IMG/VR virus record: IMGVR_UViG_3300035015_000011
Span: 1-53,987 of that record
Source: a virus
DNA: 53,987 bases
Strand: one strand, 5' to 3'
Within the stretch, counting starts at the first letter, position 1; every line of letters starts with the position of its first letter. The notes beneath the pieces are model-generated. The model saw nothing but the letters and a program-made list of their open reading frames with translations. It did not search any database and had not been told where the DNA came from. Below are positions 1-51,828 of this stretch, piece after piece. A program made the translations under genes and the position numbers.

Positions 1-1086
1 CTAGTGGCCCTCTGACGACGTTCTCGTCTTCTTCCCCTTGAAGGCCTGGATCACCTTCGCCTCGTTCTCGACGTGGCGCGTATAGTGCGCGCCCATGCGC
101 TCGGACTTGTCGCCGAGCGCTGCTGCGACTTGGCCAGCGTCAGCGCCGGATCTCCTGAGGTCTGCGGCGTAGGTCACGCGAAGGCCGTGCAGCGTCGTCT
201 TGGCGCCTATCAATCCATCCTTCTCCAGCTTGCGAAGGAAGTGGCTGACCTCGGTCTGCATCTGGACTTCATTGTCCCAGGGCTGGCCGCTCGCCTTCGT
301 GGCGATGTGCAGCGCTGACCTGGTGCAGGCCTTCAGATAGTCTTGCAGCTCGATCGCTGCCGGCACCCAGAGGATCTCGCCGTTCTTGCGGGTGACGGTG
401 CGGAAGCATTTCCCATAGGATGCGTCGTCCTGATATTCGCGCCAGGTTAGCGTTGCGATCGTCTGGCCCCGGAATCCGGCGTAGCGGGCGAGATAGAGGA
501 TCCGCCTGATATGGTCAGGGGCGGCGTCCATTGCGGCCTTGACCTCGTCGGCCATCCATTCCCGGTTGGCCTGTTTCGAGGCTTTGTGAGCCTTGTCGAG
601 GCCCTTGGCCGGATTCATCGAAATCTTGCCGCGGCGTGCGGCCTGGCTGAACATCGAGGAAAGTGCTGCGACCATGTTGTCGGCGAAGCGCGGCCACTTC
701 TCCCGGGCGCAGCGATCGCGGATGTCGTAAATGTCGGCCTGGGTGATTTCGTTGACCGGATAGTCGAACTCCGGCTTGAGGTATTTGAAGGCGGACGAAT
801 AGCTCTTCTTGGTCGCCTCTGACAGCGTCTGGTATTTCGGGCAGTCGGTCTCGTACCATTGCACGATCGAGCCCAGCGTGCCCTCGGGGTAGATGCGGGT
901 GAGGTCGCGGATGCGGCGGGCGTTATACAGCGCGATCATGTCGGGCATCGCGAGGCGCTTCATCAGCTCGTCGCGCGTGCCGTCGAAGCCGCCGAGCAGC
1001 TTCTCCTTCGTGCCACGGATATAGACGTAGAAGCGGCCGCGCGCGCGGACAATGTTAAGCCCTTCGAGCTTCACCTTCACCACCAT
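1..1086 (-). CDS. int: Tyrosine site-specific integrase of the prophage
   Basis: 361-residue tyrosine recombinase that would integrate and excise the phage. The catalytic set is readable: Arg206 in GFRGQT, a candidate Lys234 in the beta-hairpin, His300-Gly-Leu-Arg303, and the nucleophile Tyr335 in GAHYTRH. Residues about 70-165 look like the SAM-like core-binding domain and the first 60 like an arm-type DNA-binding region. The usual second His/Trp position falls around GDKS and is not a clear match. The stop codon is the first base of the window, so the adjacent attachment site lies just outside. Its start overlaps the upstream excisionase-like gene by 32 bases, so it is the last gene of the leftward early operon. 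Confidence 0.95.
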   Translation of the reverse strand: MVVKVKLEGLNIVRARGRFYVYIRGTKEKLLGGFDGTRDELMKRLAMPDMIALYNARRIRDLTRIYPEGTLGSIVQWYETDCPKYQTLSEATKKSYSSAFKYLKPEFDYPVNEITQADIYDIRDRCAREKWPRFADNMVAALSSMFSQAARRGKISMNPAKGLDKAHKASKQANREWMADEVKAAMDAAPDHIRRILYLARYAGFRGQTIATLTWREYQDDASYGKCFRTVTRKNGEILWVPAAIELQDYLKACTRSALHIATKASGQPWDNEVQMQTEVSHFLRKLEKDGLIGAKTTLHGLRVTYAADLRRSGADAGQVAAALGDKSERMGAHYTRHVENEAKVIQAFKGKKTRTSSEGH

Positions 1087-9357: not shown

Positions 9358-9690
9358 ATGGGCAGGTTGTTCAGGCTCTGCGCCACACTGCTGGCGCTCA
9401 CCAACGGCACAGCGATTGCCGGTGAGCGGGAGAATGCGCTGTCCCACATTGCCCAGGCGCTGGCCGTCACCAGGCTCTGCCCAACTGCCGACGTCGTCCG
9501 GGGCGCAATGCTGACCGTGGCTGTCGCCAACGGGGTAGACTTCGAACGCGACGAGCACGAGCTCCTGTTCCAGGTTGCCGACCAGGCCAAAGCCTTCAAG
9601 GGGCTTGCGCCCGAGGCCGCCTGCGCGGCCGGGAAGGCGCTCTATGGCCCCGGCGGCGCAAATGTGCCGGGATTGCTGCAGTTTCGATGA
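9358..9690 (+). CDS. Small secreted or periplasmic protein, candidate lysogen-expressed gene
   Basis: 110 residues with a Sec-type signal peptide: MGRLFRL, a hydrophobic core CATLLALTNGTAIA, and cleavage expected after AIA. The mature part has two cysteines (LCPTAD and AACAAG) that could form a disulfide, and ends GGANVPGLLQFR. The start was chosen at the ATG with a strong GAGGAGG site. It is the only rightward gene left of the repressor and lies opposite the transcript expected from PL. That fits a gene expressed in the lysogen and silenced when the early operon fires. Family not recognised. Confidence 0.62.
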   Translation: MGRLFRLCATLLALTNGTAIAGERENALSHIAQALAVTRLCPTADVVRGAMLTVAVANGVDFERDEHELLFQVADQAKAFKGLAPEAACAAGKALYGPGGANVPGLLQFR

Positions 9691-9832
9691 TGCAAAAACA
9701 GGGGACATGTTGGCCTCGTGCCTCGCGTTGAAGGCCGGCTCCCGTCGCTGCTGTCCCGGTTGGAAGAGGATCGTTGCAGCGACGGGCTCACGGCATCCGA
9801 CGCCGGGAGGAGGAGGGCGCCGAATGCGGTCA

Positions 9833-9860
9833 AGTATGCGGACAAATGACCTCATGTCAA
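9833..9860 (-). promoter_or_regulatory. Leftward early promoter PL
   Basis: On the minus strand TTGACA (9855-9860) is followed after 16 bases by CATACT (9833-9838). Operator O1 fills the spacer, so repressor binding would block the polymerase. It would drive the leftward early operon after crossing 9358-9690 in antisense. Confidence 0.7.
9838..9853. promoter_or_regulatory. Repressor operator O1 (in PL)
   Basis: GCGGACAAATGACCTC, an imperfect dyad shared with O2-O5. It lies between the -35 and -10 of PL. Confidence 0.8.
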
Positions 9861-9867
9861 GTAGATG

Positions 9868-9883
9868 GAGGACAAATGACCTC
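9868..9883. promoter_or_regulatory. Repressor operator O2 (upstream of PL)
   Basis: GAGGACAAATGACCTC, 30 bp (about three helical turns) from O1. A 19-bp direct repeat covers both sites. Confidence 0.8.
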
Positions 9884-9924
9884 ATGTCGTCCCGCGTGCG
9901 GGCTTAAGCCGTTGCGCATGCGCC

Positions 9925-9963
9925 AGAATCAGAAATGCCGCCAGGCGCGGGGCCGGGCGGCAT
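9925..9963 (-). terminator. Probable terminator of the repressor transcript
   Basis: Stem ATGCCGCC / GGCGGCAT (9935-9942 and 9956-9963) with a 13-base loop. On the minus strand it is followed by TTTCTGATTC, just beyond the repressor stop codon. Confidence 0.5.
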
Positions 9964-9987
9964 GGTGTATGGTGTCAGTGGGTGATG

Positions 9988-10737
9988 TCAGACGCCGAAA
10001 AGTTCGTTGACCGTCAGGACCCGGTGGACCGAGGTCACGTGTTCGCGTGCTATTTCAATTTCAGCCGGCGGATTGCGCTTGCCAATGACAAAGGCTTTCT
10101 CCGTCTTCCGGCGATAAATTCCCAATGTCGCTTCACCCTGGGCGTGCTCCCCGTTCCTGCACTGAACCACGACGATGTCGCCGGTGCGAGGTGGTCGGTG
10201 CGGATGGACATAGATGAGGTCGCCCGGAAAATATTGCGGCTCCATGGATGAGCCCTCGACGTATAGACCGTAGATTTCCTTTGCTCCGACCAAGGCCGGA
10301 GGACGCCGCACATAATCCACAATGCCTCCCTCGAACTGAAATGCGCCTCTCAGGTGAGACCCAGCCGCTGTCCCCATCACCGGCACGTCGAGCGGCATCT
10401 CAGCACGCGCGGGGAGCAGTGGAGGTGTGTCGGCCGGCTGGCCATCGACAGCCGCCCCGCGACTGTAAGCTGAAAGCCATGGGCCCAGCAAGTTCTCCGT
10501 GTCTCCTGCCGTCAGTGGAGATGCTCCCGTCGTCAGCCACGCTACGTCTGCGCTCAGCGCTGCTGCAATGCGCTGCAGCGTGTCGATGCGCGGGTGAGAG
10601 TTGGGGCGTTCGAACAGCTTCCGGAAGTAGCTGCGATCCGTACCGACAAGCAGGGACGCGGCTTCCTCGGACAGGCCGAGCTCGTCAATTCGCTGCCTGA
10701 TGCGATCGTGCAGCCCGTTTTTCGCTTTCTGAACCAT
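9988..10737 (-). CDS. CI-like repressor with S24 (LexA-type) self-cleavage domain
   Basis: 249 residues. Residues about 15-62 form a helix-turn-helix (LGLSEEAASLLVGTDRSYFR). The C-terminal half is an S24 peptidase-like dimerisation domain with Ser164 in EGSSMEPQYFPGD and a basic segment near Lys211 that probably carries the catalytic lysine. Ala125-Gly126 is a plausible self-cleavage site. The protein should hold lysogeny and be inactivated by RecA during the SOS response. The start is the ATG at 10737, directly against operator O5. Its -10 box leaves essentially no leader, as in lambda cI from PRM. An upstream in-frame extension just translates operator DNA. Confidence 0.92.
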   Translation of the reverse strand: MVQKAKNGLHDRIRQRIDELGLSEEAASLLVGTDRSYFRKLFERPNSHPRIDTLQRIAAALSADVAWLTTGASPLTAGDTENLLGPWLSAYSRGAAVDGQPADTPPLLPARAEMPLDVPVMGTAAGSHLRGAFQFEGGIVDYVRRPPALVGAKEIYGLYVEGSSMEPQYFPGDLIYVHPHRPPRTGDIVVVQCRNGEHAQGEATLGIYRRKTEKAFVIGKRNPPAEIEIAREHVTSVHRVLTVNELFGV

Positions 10738-10753
10738 GGGGTCAATTATCCTC
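10738..10753. promoter_or_regulatory. Repressor operator O5 over the repressor promoter
   Basis: GGGGTCAATTATCCTC, 13 of 16 matches to the consensus. It abuts the repressor start codon and covers the -10 of its promoter, implying autorepression. Confidence 0.65.
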
Positions 10754-10773
10754 GCGGAATGTCCTGATGGAAA
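10745..10773 (-). promoter_or_regulatory. Repressor maintenance promoter (PRM-like)
   Basis: On the minus strand TTTCCA (10768-10773), 17 bases, then GATAAT (10745-10750). The transcription start would fall at about 10738, one base before the ATG, so the message is probably leaderless. Confidence 0.6.
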
Positions 10774-10774
10774 T

Positions 10775-10790
10775 GAGGACAATTGTCTCT
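10775..10790. promoter_or_regulatory. Repressor operator O3
   Basis: GAGGACAATTGTCTCT, containing the perfect dyad GACAATTGTC. It lies just upstream of the PR -35 box, equivalent to O2 at PL. Confidence 0.8.
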
Positions 10791-10818
10791 TGACTATGCG
10801 GACAAATGACCGCATAAA
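10790..10818 (+). promoter_or_regulatory. Rightward early promoter PR
   Basis: TTGACT (10790-10795), 17 bases, CATAAA (10813-10818). Operator O4 fills the spacer, as O1 does at PL. The expected start is at about 10825, next to the ATG at 10826. Confidence 0.7.
10798..10813. promoter_or_regulatory. Repressor operator O4 (in PR)
   Basis: GCGGACAAATGACCGC, a near-perfect dyad whose arms extend to ATGCGG and CCGCAT. It lies 23 bp from O3. Confidence 0.8.
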
Positions 10819-10825
10819 TCCCGAT

Positions 10826-11080
10826 ATGAAGATGCGAGATCAGATCCTTCTGACGGCTGACACCTATGCGCGGCATCGCGGCGTGGGGCGCAAGCGCGTC
10901 TCGAAACTGGTCCTGAACCGGGGCTCGAAGCTTGACGACATTGCCGGAGGAGGCGACCTGACTACCTCCATTTTCGAGCGTGCAATGCTGTGGTTCTCTG
11001 ACAACTGGCCGGCGGATCTTGCCTGGCCCGAAGGTGTATCGCGTCCTGTAGCGGACCTCTGCCGGGAGGCGGCTGAATGA
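10826..11080 (+). CDS. Cro-like first gene of the rightward operon
   Basis: 84 residues from the ATG at 10826 (or 82 from 10832). The N-terminal half (LLTADTYARHRGVGRKRVSKLVLNR as two helices around residues 7-31) could form a helix-turn-helix, and the C-terminal part is Trp-rich (ERAMLWFSDNWPADLAWP). It is divergent from the repressor across three operators, the classic place for cro. No ribosome site precedes it, and PR would start transcription at about the A of the ATG, so it may be translated from a leaderless message. The assignment rests on position and size. Confidence 0.65.
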   Translation: MKMRDQILLTADTYARHRGVGRKRVSKLVLNRGSKLDDIAGGGDLTTSIFERAMLWFSDNWPADLAWPEGVSRPVADLCREAAE

Positions 11081-11176: not shown

Positions 11177-11221
11177 TTTCCCACGACGGGAAACGACGCC
11201 GGGATTTCCCGGCGCGGGAAA
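11177..11221. promoter_or_regulatory. Two 17-bp dyads TTTCCC-N5-GGGAAA upstream of the CII-like gene
   Basis: Perfect six-base arms at 11177-11193 (spacer ACGAC) and 11205-11221 (spacer GGCGC), 28 bp apart, ending 22 bases before the CII-like start. The design (two spaced identical dyads) is that of a regulator binding site. The likely ligand is the CII-like or Cro-like product. It is unrelated in sequence to operators O1-O5. Confidence 0.6.
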
Positions 11222-11243: not shown

Positions 11244-11747
11244 ATGAGTGTTTCGGAAAATTGGTTCTACAGCGTGAAGGCAGCCCAGCGCGACCTGGTG
11301 AAGCTTTGCGGCACCATCGAGCGCGCAGCGGTCGTCGCCAATATCTCTAAGACGCAGATGGGCCGCTTCGTCAACGCGACCGACCCGGAGCTGATGCCGC
11401 TGCATGTGATCGTCGTTCTTGAAAAGGAATGCGGCCAGCCGGTGGTCACGCAGGTGATGGCATCCGAGCAGGGCCGGCGGCTGACGGACCCGGACGAGGA
11501 GCGCCAGGTCGAGCGCGACGTCATGACGGGGTATGCGGCGCTGATGCAGCAGAGCGCGTCGGTGGTCAACGCGCTGGCCTCGGCCATGGCCGACGGGCAG
11601 GTGACTCCAGTGGAGGCTCAGGCGGTCGACCGTGCACTTTCGTCGATGCAGAACGCGACGCAGGACCTGCGTGCGGCTCTGGCCGGCGTCAAAGCTCGCG
11701 GCGGCGTCAAGGCATCGCTGTCCGTGGTTTCGGGAGAGGGTGCATGA
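11244..11747 (+). CDS. CII-like phage regulatory protein (CP76-type)
   Basis: 167 residues. The first 75 (KAAQRDLVKLCGTIERAAVV, then NISKTQMGRFVN, then LMPLHVIVVLEKECGQPVVT) have the layout of the phage regulatory protein CII/CP76 family: a helix-turn-helix followed by a helix that recognises poorly conserved sites. The C-terminal half is a long amphipathic helix, probably for oligomerisation. It lies third in the immunity region and first after the TTTCCC dyads, so it is placed to set the choice between lysis and lysogeny or to activate the replication genes. Preceded by GAGGTGA. Confidence 0.75.
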   Translation: MSVSENWFYSVKAAQRDLVKLCGTIERAAVVANISKTQMGRFVNATDPELMPLHVIVVLEKECGQPVVTQVMASEQGRRLTDPDEERQVERDVMTGYAALMQQSASVVNALASAMADGQVTPVEAQAVDRALSSMQNATQDLRAALAGVKARGGVKASLSVVSGEGA

Positions 11748-47535: not shown

Positions 47536-47759
47536 ACAAGATCGCTCTCATTCTGGCAGTTGTCCCATCGATTGCGCTCGCAGATCTGCCGCCTGACATC
47601 GATGATCGTCCGGCAGAACCGCCGGCCCTGTCCCAGGTGGCGGTGCCCTGTCTTCGCGAGAAGGACGAGCGGGGCTATGTCGTGACATGGGAGATCCGCA
47701 ACACGGTGACGGGCGAAAGAAAGAGTGTGGGAAGTCAAGAAGTCAGGCAGATATGCTAA
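47532..47759 (+). CDS. Small secreted protein after the spanins
   Basis: 75 residues. Signal peptide MNKIALILAVVPSIALA, then a Pro/Asp-rich section and VVTWEIRNTVTGERKSVGSQ, with two cysteines (PCLREK and RQIC) that could pair. Overlaps the previous stop by four bases and the acyltransferase start by seven. Function unknown; periplasmic. Confidence 0.62.
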   Translation: MNKIALILAVVPSIALADLPPDIDDRPAEPPALSQVAVPCLREKDERGYVVTWEIRNTVTGERKSVGSQEVRQIC

Positions 47760-49894
47760 CGCATGCAGGTGGCATCAGCTTGGTGGATTGCGGGAGGAGA
47801 CAGTTTCCGGTAGTGACCCACACAGCTACCCTCGACCAGGGTGCGCAGTTGCTTGACGACGGGGATTCCAGGGGCACTTCTTTGGCGACTTCAGCCTATC
47901 GGCCGGAAATTGATGGCCTACGCGCTATAGCGGTCATCTCGGTCGTCATCTACCATGCTGAACTGAGCCTGTTTGGATATAGTTTCCTGCCCGGCGGTTT
48001 TCTGGGCGTTGATGTTTTCTTTGTAATATCGGGCTACCTGATCGGCAGGATCGTCATCGGCGACGTGTCTGCCGGACGGTTCAGCTTCAGGGACTTTTAC
48101 GAGCGACGGGTTCGGCGGATAGCTCCCGCGTTGTTGTTGGTCATCGGGGCGACAATCCCGTTTGCGTGGTCACTGCTGACGATCGAACAGTTTCGAAGTT
48201 TCGGCTTGAGCATCATCTCATCGCTCACCTTTGTTTCCAACTTCCAGTTCTGGCTGGAGGATGGGTATGCATCGGAGGCCAGTTCGCTCAAGCCTCTGCT
48301 TCATACCTGGAGCCTGGCAATCGAAGAGCAGTTCTACCTCTTCTTCCCTGCCGCCGTGCTCCTGGCTTTCGCTCTCGGTCGCAGAGTGCTTACTGCGGCG
48401 CTGCTGATTGCGCTCGGCCTCTCGATCCTTGTTGCGGAATATCTGACTTATCGAGCGCCATCCGCATCTTTCTATCTTCTGCCAAGCCGTCTGTGGGAGC
48501 TTCTCGCGGGGACTGTGCTCGCATGGCTGGAGATCCGGGGTGTGCGCCGCGTCGGAGGACTTTCTGCCCGGCTCCTGATGATCGCAGCCCTGGCCGTCCT
48601 TGTCGCGTATGTCTGCTTTCCGCTGATAACGCTTGACCGGCATCCGGGATTTGAAACCGTGCCCGTCGTGATCGCCGTCATGGCCATGATCTGGGCAGAC
48701 GGGAAGGGCGGCCGGGCGTACGGGCTGCTCTCTGCTCGGCCTGTTGTTGGGTTGGGGTTGATTTCCTATTCGTTCTATCTCTGGCATCAGCCGGTGTTTG
48801 CTCTCGCGCGAAACGCAAATGTCGACGAATTGTCGTCGTTTCTGAAAATCCTGCTGGTATTTCTATCCGGGGCTCTGGCATGGGCCAGCTGGAAGTTTGT
48901 GGAGACACCCTTCAGGAGCAAGGCAAAGGTACCAAGCCGGGTCCTCTGGTCGGCTTCCGGCTGCGGTCTTGGGCTGATGATCGTCTGCGGGGCCTATTTC
49001 GCCAAGGATGGCCTTCCAATGCGGTATCCTGAATCCGTCCGCTACCAGCCTGTCCAAGAGTGGAAGATCCTCAAGCAGGGTGGACAGCCGTGCCACACCG
49101 AACTTGCGAGTTTTTCCTGTCAGTTCGATCTTTCTGGAGCGGGACGCCCGTGGATGCTCGTCGGTGACAGCCATGCAAGCGTCTTGGGGCCTGCTCTCCT
49201 CGATGGCCTGAAGCAAAAGGCCAGCCGCCTGACGACGTGGACCTGGGGTGGCTGCCCGGTCATCTTCGATGTCGATTATGCGGTCTACAATTATGAAGGC
49301 GAACAGTGCGCCGCGCGCAACATCGAGGTCAGAAAGGCATTGGAAGCGGCGCCGCCCAGTGTTGTCGTCTATGCGGCCCGTATGCCTCTTTGGCTGTCAG
49401 CGGAAAGATTCAACAACGAAGAAGGCGGTGTCGAGGCCGGAACAGCTTTGAAGCTTGCCGTCAAAAACTCGGACGGGGCGACTGTGCCACAGGCCGTGAC
49501 GGAGACGCTTCAATCCATCATAGAGATGGGCCACGAGTTGATTGTGGTCTATCCTGTTCCTGAGGTTGGATGGAGCGTGCCGCGCGCGCTCAACCGTCTC
49601 ACCCCTAAAACTCCGAAATTGGCAGAGGAATGGCTGGCTCGCCAAGGCGTGACCACCTCGCTGGAGGTTTTCCGGCGCCGTAGTGCCGTGGCGTATGACG
49701 CATATGACGCGATCGGTGCCTTGCCGAACGTTCACCGGGTCTACCCGGAGCATGTTTTTTGCAGCGAGGTTTCCATGCGCTGTAAAACGCACGACGTCCG
49801 GTCTGTCTGGTACTCCGATGATGACCACCTTTCACGAGCTGGCGCAGACAAGGTCGTTTCCCAAATTTTTCGTGTGATTTCGAATTCGCTCTAG
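47753..49894 (+). CDS. OafA/YrhL-type O-antigen acyltransferase with SGNH domain
   Basis: 713 residues from the ATG at 47753; a GTG at 47813 with GGGAGGAG upstream is an alternative. The membrane acyltransferase-3 domain begins YRPEIDGLRAIAVISVVIYH and continues with GGFLGVDVFFVISGYLIGR and LKPLLHTWSLAIEEQFYLFF; about ten membrane spans. The C-terminal SGNH hydrolase-like domain has GDSHAS (about residue 470) and a final DDDHLSRAG (about 690). It transfers acetyl or other acyl groups to surface polysaccharide, altering serotype and phage receptors, so lysogenic conversion is likely. Confidence 0.92.
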   Translation: MLTHAGGISLVDCGRRQFPVVTHTATLDQGAQLLDDGDSRGTSLATSAYRPEIDGLRAIAVISVVIYHAELSLFGYSFLPGGFLGVDVFFVISGYLIGRIVIGDVSAGRFSFRDFYERRVRRIAPALLLVIGATIPFAWSLLTIEQFRSFGLSIISSLTFVSNFQFWLEDGYASEASSLKPLLHTWSLAIEEQFYLFFPAAVLLAFALGRRVLTAALLIALGLSILVAEYLTYRAPSASFYLLPSRLWELLAGTVLAWLEIRGVRRVGGLSARLLMIAALAVLVAYVCFPLITLDRHPGFETVPVVIAVMAMIWADGKGGRAYGLLSARPVVGLGLISYSFYLWHQPVFALARNANVDELSSFLKILLVFLSGALAWASWKFVETPFRSKAKVPSRVLWSASGCGLGLMIVCGAYFAKDGLPMRYPESVRYQPVQEWKILKQGGQPCHTELASFSCQFDLSGAGRPWMLVGDSHASVLGPALLDGLKQKASRLTTWTWGGCPVIFDVDYAVYNYEGEQCAARNIEVRKALEAAPPSVVVYAARMPLWLSAERFNNEEGGVEAGTALKLAVKNSDGATVPQAVTETLQSIIEMGHELIVVYPVPEVGWSVPRALNRLTPKTPKLAEEWLARQGVTTSLEVFRRRSAVAYDAYDAIGALPNVHRVYPEHVFCSEVSMRCKTHDVRSVWYSDDDHLSRAGADKVVSQIFRVISNSL

Positions 49895-51742: not shown

Positions 51743-51828
51743 GCGGACGTGGCGAAACTGGTAGACGCAAGAGACTTAAAATCTCTCGGCCTCAGGTCAT
51801 GCGGGTTCGATCCCCGCCGTCCGCACCA
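51743..51828 (+). tRNA. tRNA-Leu (anticodon UAA)
   Basis: Complete 86-base tRNA with encoded CCA. The acceptor stem GCGGACG pairs with CGTCCGC, and the anticodon loop reads CTTAAAA (anticodon TAA). A long variable arm (CGGCCTCAGGTCATG) and the T loop GTTCGATCC follow. All these fit class II leucine tRNA. It may mark the host boundary of the prophage. Confidence 0.97.

Follow-up and report, generated by a model that had tools for sequence, protein, structure and literature searches.

Five short dyads flank a repressor-like gene in an IMG/VR virus contig (IMGVR_UViG_3300035015_000011; 53,987 bases, all of which were analysed and are referred to here as the window), and this locus raises the question of whether the dyads make up a temperate-phage immunity region and, if so, of what kind. 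We consider it very probable that they do and that the region would work like the switch of phage lambda; judged by its sequence the switch is of the lambda style and belongs to an alphaproteobacterial family, in which dozens of related phages come mostly from rhizobia and allied bacteria. A previous sequence-only reading took the locus for a lambda-style switch that is complete and has a new operator sequence. This description is supported, in that relatives keep the architecture with other operators and the repressor has HTH_3 and Peptidase_S24 domains, although 'complete' was inferred, the operators are arranged as two plus three and not three plus three, and the match to a Cro-like protein is weak. 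To that reading we add an activator-like location of OR2, predicted leaderless transcripts, a PL leader RNA, and a candidate second type of operator ahead of a CII-like gene.

Five predicted operators and their promoters

The components of the region are listed below (coordinates, strand, description); the PL and PR promoters were recognised from their sequence, and the repressor from Pfam domains and its predicted fold.

9832–9860, minus strand: PL core promoter; TTGACA at 9860–9855, 17-bp spacer, ATACTT; predicted start near 9825
9838–9853, no strand: OL1, GCGGACAAATGACCTC; fills the 17-bp spacer of PL
9868–9883, no strand: OL2, GAGGACAAATGACCTC; second left operator, 30 bp from OL1
9988–10737, minus strand: CI-type repressor of 249 amino acids, HTH_3 and Peptidase_S24; ATG at 10737–10735
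10738–10753, no strand: OR3, GGGGTCAATTATCCTC; on the PRM -10 and abutting the repressor ATG; predicted autorepression site
10745–10773, minus strand: PRM; -35 TTTCCA (4/6), 17-bp spacer, -10 GATAAT at 10750–10745 inside OR3; predicted start 10738
10775–10790, no strand: OR2, GAGGACAATTGTCTCT; centre 35 bp from the centre of the PRM -10
10790–10818, plus strand: PR; TTGACT at 10790–10795, 17-bp spacer, CATAAA; predicted start 10825
10798–10813, no strand: OR1, GCGGACAAATGACCGC; fills the 17-bp spacer of PR
10826–11080, plus strand: Cro-position small protein of 84 amino acids, PHROG 7669, predicted all-helical

Each 16-bp dyad has 5–6 of its 8 base pairs symmetric, and the five operators are the five top matrix scores in the window (18.6–22.9). 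With leave-one-out matrices each omitted site still ranks within the top six (lowest score 13.88), and 100 first-order Markov surrogates of the window gave a mean of 0.03 hits at or above 18.6 and 0.4 at or above 13.88; as one surrogate reached 21.4, a single isolated site could be chance, but not five within 1 kb. The earlier reading had all five places right, with two sites 30 bp apart at PL and three between the repressor and Cro-position genes; three sites match its consensus exactly, whereas two deviate by 2–3 bases. Its statement that sites fill the spacers of the outward-facing promoters and cover the repressor -10 also holds, but its labels O4 and O5 do not, the PR site being the fifth and the PRM -10 site the third from left to right.

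The search of the genome for more copies that the same reading had suggested yielded no further exact copies of the 14-base core GNGGACAAWTGNCC in the window. A sixth, weaker match at 1547–1562 (score 15.3) overlaps an apparent minus-strand start codon and the bases upstream of it and is counted as chance (0.15 expected at or above 15.28). A relaxed 14-base pattern with at most one mismatch matches the window 34 times and the reversed control 14 times; in the record of the nearest relative, locus L004, the numbers are 27 and 12, palindromic true sites scoring on both strands in these counts. The scan revealed no cluster beyond the true sites, and the idea of additional sites spread across the genome was rejected.

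A layout conserved among relatives

Relatives of the repressor were drawn from viral contigs and bacterial genomes, the full-length bacterial ones being mostly Hyphomicrobiales by their record titles (Rhizobium, Sinorhizobium, Agrobacterium, Mesorhizobium, Brucella and Hoeflea). The match reached the N-terminal part in 83 loci; after one with a short upstream region was dropped and identical upstream regions were merged there remained 72, or 73 with the window. The layout was first seen in L004–L010 and then tested on the remaining loci, with the PR -35 (GTCA(A/T) on the other strand) as a selection criterion; this motif is present upstream in 61 of the 73.

In the held-out loci OR1 and OR2 are 22–23 bp apart in 44/53, and a left pair (the two best OR1 matches in the 1.5 kb that follow the repressor gene, both at least 12/16) is spaced by 28–30 bp in 29/53, compared with 0/1060 shuffled-operator controls at 29/30 bp. 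The full OR criteria are passed by 50 of the 73 loci, including the window. Within these 50, OR2 lies at 22/23 bp with at least 10/16 matches in 46 (shuffled controls, 16/2500), a left pair 28–30 bp apart is found in 38 at a threshold of at least 11/16, and TTGAC stands 0–2 bases before the PL site equivalent to OL1 in 47 of the 50 PL regions. L004, with about 70% repressor identity, has the same sites and spacings as the window.

OR2 and the control of PRM

Because the predicted starts of PRM and PR fall one base before the start codons of the repressor and Cro-position genes, both mRNAs are predicted to be leaderless, and the repressor ATG is 0–1 base from the predicted PRM start in 50/50 loci. 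Measured centre to centre, OR2 and the PRM -10 are 34 bp apart in 44 loci, 35 in five (including the window) and 28 in one, while the OR2–OR3 spacing is 33, 34 or 37 bp (27 once), tracking the place of the -10 inside OR3; OR2 thus appears pegged to PRM and not to OR3. In lambda OR2 is at about -42, i.e. 1–2 bp closer than here. The placement of OR2 therefore resembles the activator position of lambda OR2, and provides good but indirect evidence that PRM would be activated from it.

A switch acting by repression only, in which OR2 merely aids binding at OR1 and the repressor is only negatively autoregulated, is a doubtful but quite possible alternative. It is compatible with the PRM -10 elements, which are often good (TATAAT, TAGAAT, GATAAT), and with the 22–23 bp between OR2 and OR1, a spacing that suits pairwise cooperativity. 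It does not explain why OR2 stays 34–35 bp from the PRM -10 in 49/50 loci despite the varying OR2–OR3 distance, though the distance to OR1 is equally constant; nor does it sit well with the PRM -35, which is poor in nearly all loci (2–5 of 6 matches to TTGACA). We therefore favour activation from OR2.

The repressor and its active site

The repressor matches Peptidase_S24 with an E value of 1.7e-10 and HTH_3 (helix-turn-helix, HTH) with 2.8e-4, just under the cut-off of that family. The predicted HTH domain resembles 434 Cro (template modelling (TM) score 0.86 by target length) and the predicted C-terminal domain resembles lambda CI (TM 0.64–0.65). Ser164 and the Ala125-Gly126 bond are present, and nearly all of the repressors keep both. 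Column 206, which by our alignment we take to be the position of lambda CI K192 and LexA K156, is a glycine in the window, such that the catalytic lysine is absent from its usual place. Across 84 of 85 repressors (L109, with a gap there, was left out) columns 206/220 are Gly/Lys in 59, Ala/Lys in 2 and Lys/Gln in 23, with no other states, and Lys220 is invariant in the clade that has no lysine at 206. A predicted hairpin, 201–211/215–221, places residues 206 and 220 as cross-strand neighbours, and Lys220 may replace lysine 206 as the general base, i.e. a relocated catalytic lysine.

In a tree built from 72 of the 85 rows, the other 13 being partial or odd, the Gly/Lys repressors are on one side of a branch with a support of 88. 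The OR layout occurs in 48/56 Gly/Lys loci and in 0/14 of the Lys/Gln loci tested, but the single origin of the Gly/Lys state makes this association one coincidence and not repeated evidence.

Operator classes and recognition helices

The layout is conserved but the operator sequences differ: one chassis, many SPECIFICITIES. The window, L004, L006, L042, L045 and others have GAGGAC, GCGGAC or GCGGTC half-sites; other classes are GCGGAA, the commonest, GCGTAT/GCGTAA, and GCGGCC (Aurantimonas phage AmM-1 and L057), and L081, L082 and L091, from Brucella/Ochrobactrum, have GGGGAC. The repressor recognition helices vary accordingly: 'RSY.RK' goes with GG(A/T)C, and Tyr37 with GGAC/GGTC; mostly 'K(D/E)(T/M).RK' goes with GGAA; and 'TGA(K/R)(D/E)T.RK' goes with CGTA, and Gly33 with GCGT. 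Among 37 distinct pairs, residues 33, 34, 37 and 44 are some of those that share high mutual information with the operator. The operator class thus appears to follow the recognition helix, and the sequence in the window would represent one immunity specificity among several.

We think it improbable that the dyads are read mainly by the PHROG 7669 protein, or by both proteins, such that the operator classes reflect PHROG 7669 as much as the repressor. The gene for this protein sits at PR, and lambda CI and Cro read the same sites; against this, the operator class follows the repressor helix, and the relatives of the PHROG 7669 protein show weak HTH resemblance. The repressor remains the preferred reader of the sites.

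Genes to the right and proposed operation of the switch

PHROG 7669 is a family annotated with unknown function, and the predicted fold of the Cro-position protein matches XRE/HTH proteins weakly (best E 0.18, to a CUT domain). Two further features lie to its right.

11177–11221, no strand: candidate operators of a second type; a pair of TTTCCC-N5-GGGAAA dyads with a spacing of 28 bp, ahead of the CII-like gene
11244–11747, plus strand: CII-like regulator; Phage_CP76, E 3e-6; PHROG 101, E 1.1e-22

A slightly looser form of the second pattern is found in 32 of 116 loci, several of which overlap or are redundant, mostly as pairs about 28 bp apart and regardless of OR/OL class; the two dyads could alternatively be a pair of RNA hairpins.

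In the switch that we envisage, repressor dimers at OL1, with OL2 helping, and at OR1, with OR2 helping, would block RNA polymerase and keep PL and PR off, while the dimer at OR2 would touch polymerase at the weak PRM and keep the repressor gene on. At high repressor concentration OR3 would fill and PRM would be shut off, and the Cro-position product of PR together with the CII-like protein would tilt the decision. On derepression PL would drive the leftward genes, encoding the single-stranded DNA-binding protein (SSB), the processivity factor and, at the end, the integrase, through a structured leader RNA.

Several observations weigh against this interpretation. First, the finder does not recover every locus: 12 of 73 lack GTCA(A/T) in the stretch scanned for it, and 23 of 73 do not pass the complete OR test (8/56 Gly/Lys, 14/14 Lys/Gln and one Ala/Lys, among proteins with a scored active-site state). 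Cases such as L025, which is near the window in repressor sequence and by eye has TGGGA-type repeats with no GTCA(A/T) where scanned, mean that a GTCAA-anchored finder misses some members. Secondly, 12 of the 50 OR-layout loci have no left pair by our test, and L081, L082 and L091, mutual near relatives, apparently have a single left site. Thirdly, OR1 was chosen by nearness to GTCA(A/T) and dyad score, and OR2 and OR3 as the best matches to OR1 within set ranges, so that their places are partly built into the layout test; likewise, the helix–operator count was made without correction for descent, so that part of its signal is clade structure. Lastly, the PR -10 is weak, often CATTTT with 3/6 matches, and a Cro role for the PR gene is weakly supported, by its position, PHROG 7669 and the weak fold match.

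The PL leader RNA

Between PL and the leftward genes is a predicted structured leader.

9726–9829, minus strand: PL leader RNA; hairpin 1 at 9827–9793, loop CUCCUCCUCCC; hairpin 2 at 9786–9741

The window leader has one perfect anti-Shine-Dalgarno (anti-SD) loop and a degenerate second one, whereas several relatives have two. An unbroken stem of at least 10 pairs is found in 30/50 leaders compared to 32/1000 shuffles, the leader loops are pyrimidine-rich (76% versus 51%), and the loops of the best stems contain UCCUCC or CUCCC in 13/50 leaders versus 33/1000. In a plain minimum-free-energy count 18/50 leaders have at least one anti-SD loop and two have two (16 and 0 of 500 shuffles), which is an undercount, probably because the loops pair with the downstream GGAGG. 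In an alignment of 17 leaders pairing holds in 95% of cells, and changes on both sides are seen in 29 cells, compared with 9.9 in shuffles, 0/500 of which were as high, and at most 8 in slid structures; because the 17 rows were picked for showing the motif, and the structure came from these same rows, this covariation result is biased towards the structure.

At gathering thresholds Rfam finds only a tRNA. In a permissive search of five chosen loci all seven hits at E of 1 or less are to ar14 or CcsR1, below gathering scores, the best being L045 to ar14 and L052 to CcsR1, both with E 5e-4; for the window region the top hit is ar14 (9736–9854, E 0.021, below the gathering score). A model of the leader, R1, matches the window with E 1.7e-7, the window being one of its 17 training rows, and yields 24 hits at E of 0.1 or less in 74 sources, 17 of which are its own training rows. 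The others are in L076 (E 1.9e-7), L050, L071, the two copies of AmM-1 (0.001–0.005) and L060, as well as one in L027 that is likely to be chance. In the six whole genomes holding L064, L067, L071, L073, L077 and L081 there are two R1 hits, one in G006 that scores the same as the L077 leader and is probably identical with it, and a weak one in G007 (E 0.004); these six genomes provide no evidence of the model reaching host small RNAs.

In cuckoo RNAs, by definition, between two and four hairpins stand side by side and each carries a CCUCCUCCC loop. Alpha-r14 (NfeR1) and CcsR1, which are of this type, are described as having neighbouring hairpins whose stems vary and whose loops are CCUCCUCCC anti-Shine-Dalgarno sequences (PMC3927594, PMC10746234), and NfeR1 as silencing mRNAs through these loops (PMC10746234). 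The phage PL leaders score best against these families, but differ from them in being the 5′ leader of an operon, with at most two such hairpins and under predicted repressor control. The leader may be cis-acting or trans-acting, or may target RNA polymerase. We regard as unlikely, though worth stating, the larger proposal that derepression launches a phage anti-SD RNA, either the PL leader or a processed piece of it, that silences host or phage mRNAs in trans as NfeR1 and CcsR1 do, alongside a parallel move of the catalytic lysine from 206 to 220.

We note two small genes near the leader. A 110-amino-acid protein with a signal-peptide-like start is encoded at 9358–9690 on the plus strand, antisense to the PL transcript; it is 66% identical in L004, occurs in an equally opposing orientation in L042 and L076, and is possibly expressed from the prophage. 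The minus-strand frame opposite it was considered as the first PL gene and dropped, its identity with L004 being 52% versus 66% for the plus frame. In many relatives (L009, L007, L045, L056, L077 and L054) a small open reading frame of about 60 codons follows the leader; none was recognised at the matching place in the window or L004.

Comparison with known switches

As in lambda, the repressor gene lies between PL and PR, the operators are inside the promoters, the repressor is of the HTH plus S24 type, and a CII-like gene is downstream of PR. In lambda, OR1 and OR2 are about 23 bp apart and OR3 is on PRM, as here; the repressor mRNA is leaderless, as predicted here; and OR2 activates PRM, near whose activator position OR2 also lies here. 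There are several differences: two left and three right operators in place of three and three, with the left pair 29–30 bp apart; 16-bp operators of unrelated sequence, with OR3 on the -10 and directly adjoining the start codon; a distance of about 0.96 kb between OL and OR; a changed position of the catalytic lysine; no recognisable Cro family; and a PL leader with anti-SD-type hairpins.

The immC region of 16-3, a temperate phage of rhizobia, likewise places its repressor between promoters that diverge, with operators on the left and on the right, and its C repressor shares 37% identity across about 124 C-terminal residues. However, the annotated operators oL1, oL2, oR1 and oR2 are 12–14 bp long and of different sequence; OR2 is on the Pr -10, OR1 is between Pr and Pc, and OL1/OL2 are beside the PL -35; and the C repressor has Lys/Gln at the active-site pair, unlike the Gly/Lys of the window. 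The same kind of repressor in the Gly/Lys state is found in AmM-1 and Rhizobium phage RR1-A. AmM-1 (L058) shows the OR layout, its sites being of the GCGGCC type, together with one or more PL sites but no 28–30 bp left pair by our test, and RR1-A has GCGTAT-type sites by eye; in the stretches examined their records list genes and no operators, and the operator classes are other than that of the window.

A 2025 survey of phiLM21-like Sinorhizobium prophages, which may or may not belong to this family, looked for lambda- and 16-3-like operators and reports none (PMC12429752). Searches of open-access full text, including PMC12429752 and PMC10460002, turned up no earlier description of the present operators, and we therefore treat the region as an apparently undescribed form of the lambda-type switch.

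Phage context

The immunity region sits between leftward early and integration genes and rightward replication and structural genes. The minus-strand genes encode SSB and a DNA polymerase processivity factor, with an integrase at the far end of the PL side.

3–1086, minus strand: tyrosine integrase

The plus-strand genes include those for a methylase, primase, terminase, portal and baseplate, and from these two sets the window looks like a temperate phage. It is very unlikely that this is a decayed prophage whose architecture is real but whose switch no longer functions, as might be suspected from the OR2–OR3 spacing of 37 against the usual 33/34 and from the degenerate second hairpin loop, since the genes for the repressor, integrase, primase, terminase, portal and baseplate all have open frames and L004 keeps the same sites and spacings.

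Two other features are of note. An O-antigen acetylase-like protein is encoded at 47687–49894 on the plus strand (PHROG 6705, E 3e-129) and is likely a lysogenic conversion gene. A tRNA gene at 51743–51825 on the plus strand lies near the right end, with the integrase at the left end, and is a possible attachment site.

Implications

With this switch, the prophages of rhizobia and other alphaproteobacteria would gain a defined five-site immunity system with many natural operator specificities on one chassis. The loci provide a data set for a repressor–operator code, for predicting shared prophage immunity, and for building orthogonal repressors for these bacteria. The leader RNA raises the question of whether phages deploy host-like anti-SD RNAs, and the lysine swap that of whether a Ser-Lys protease can relocate its lysine.

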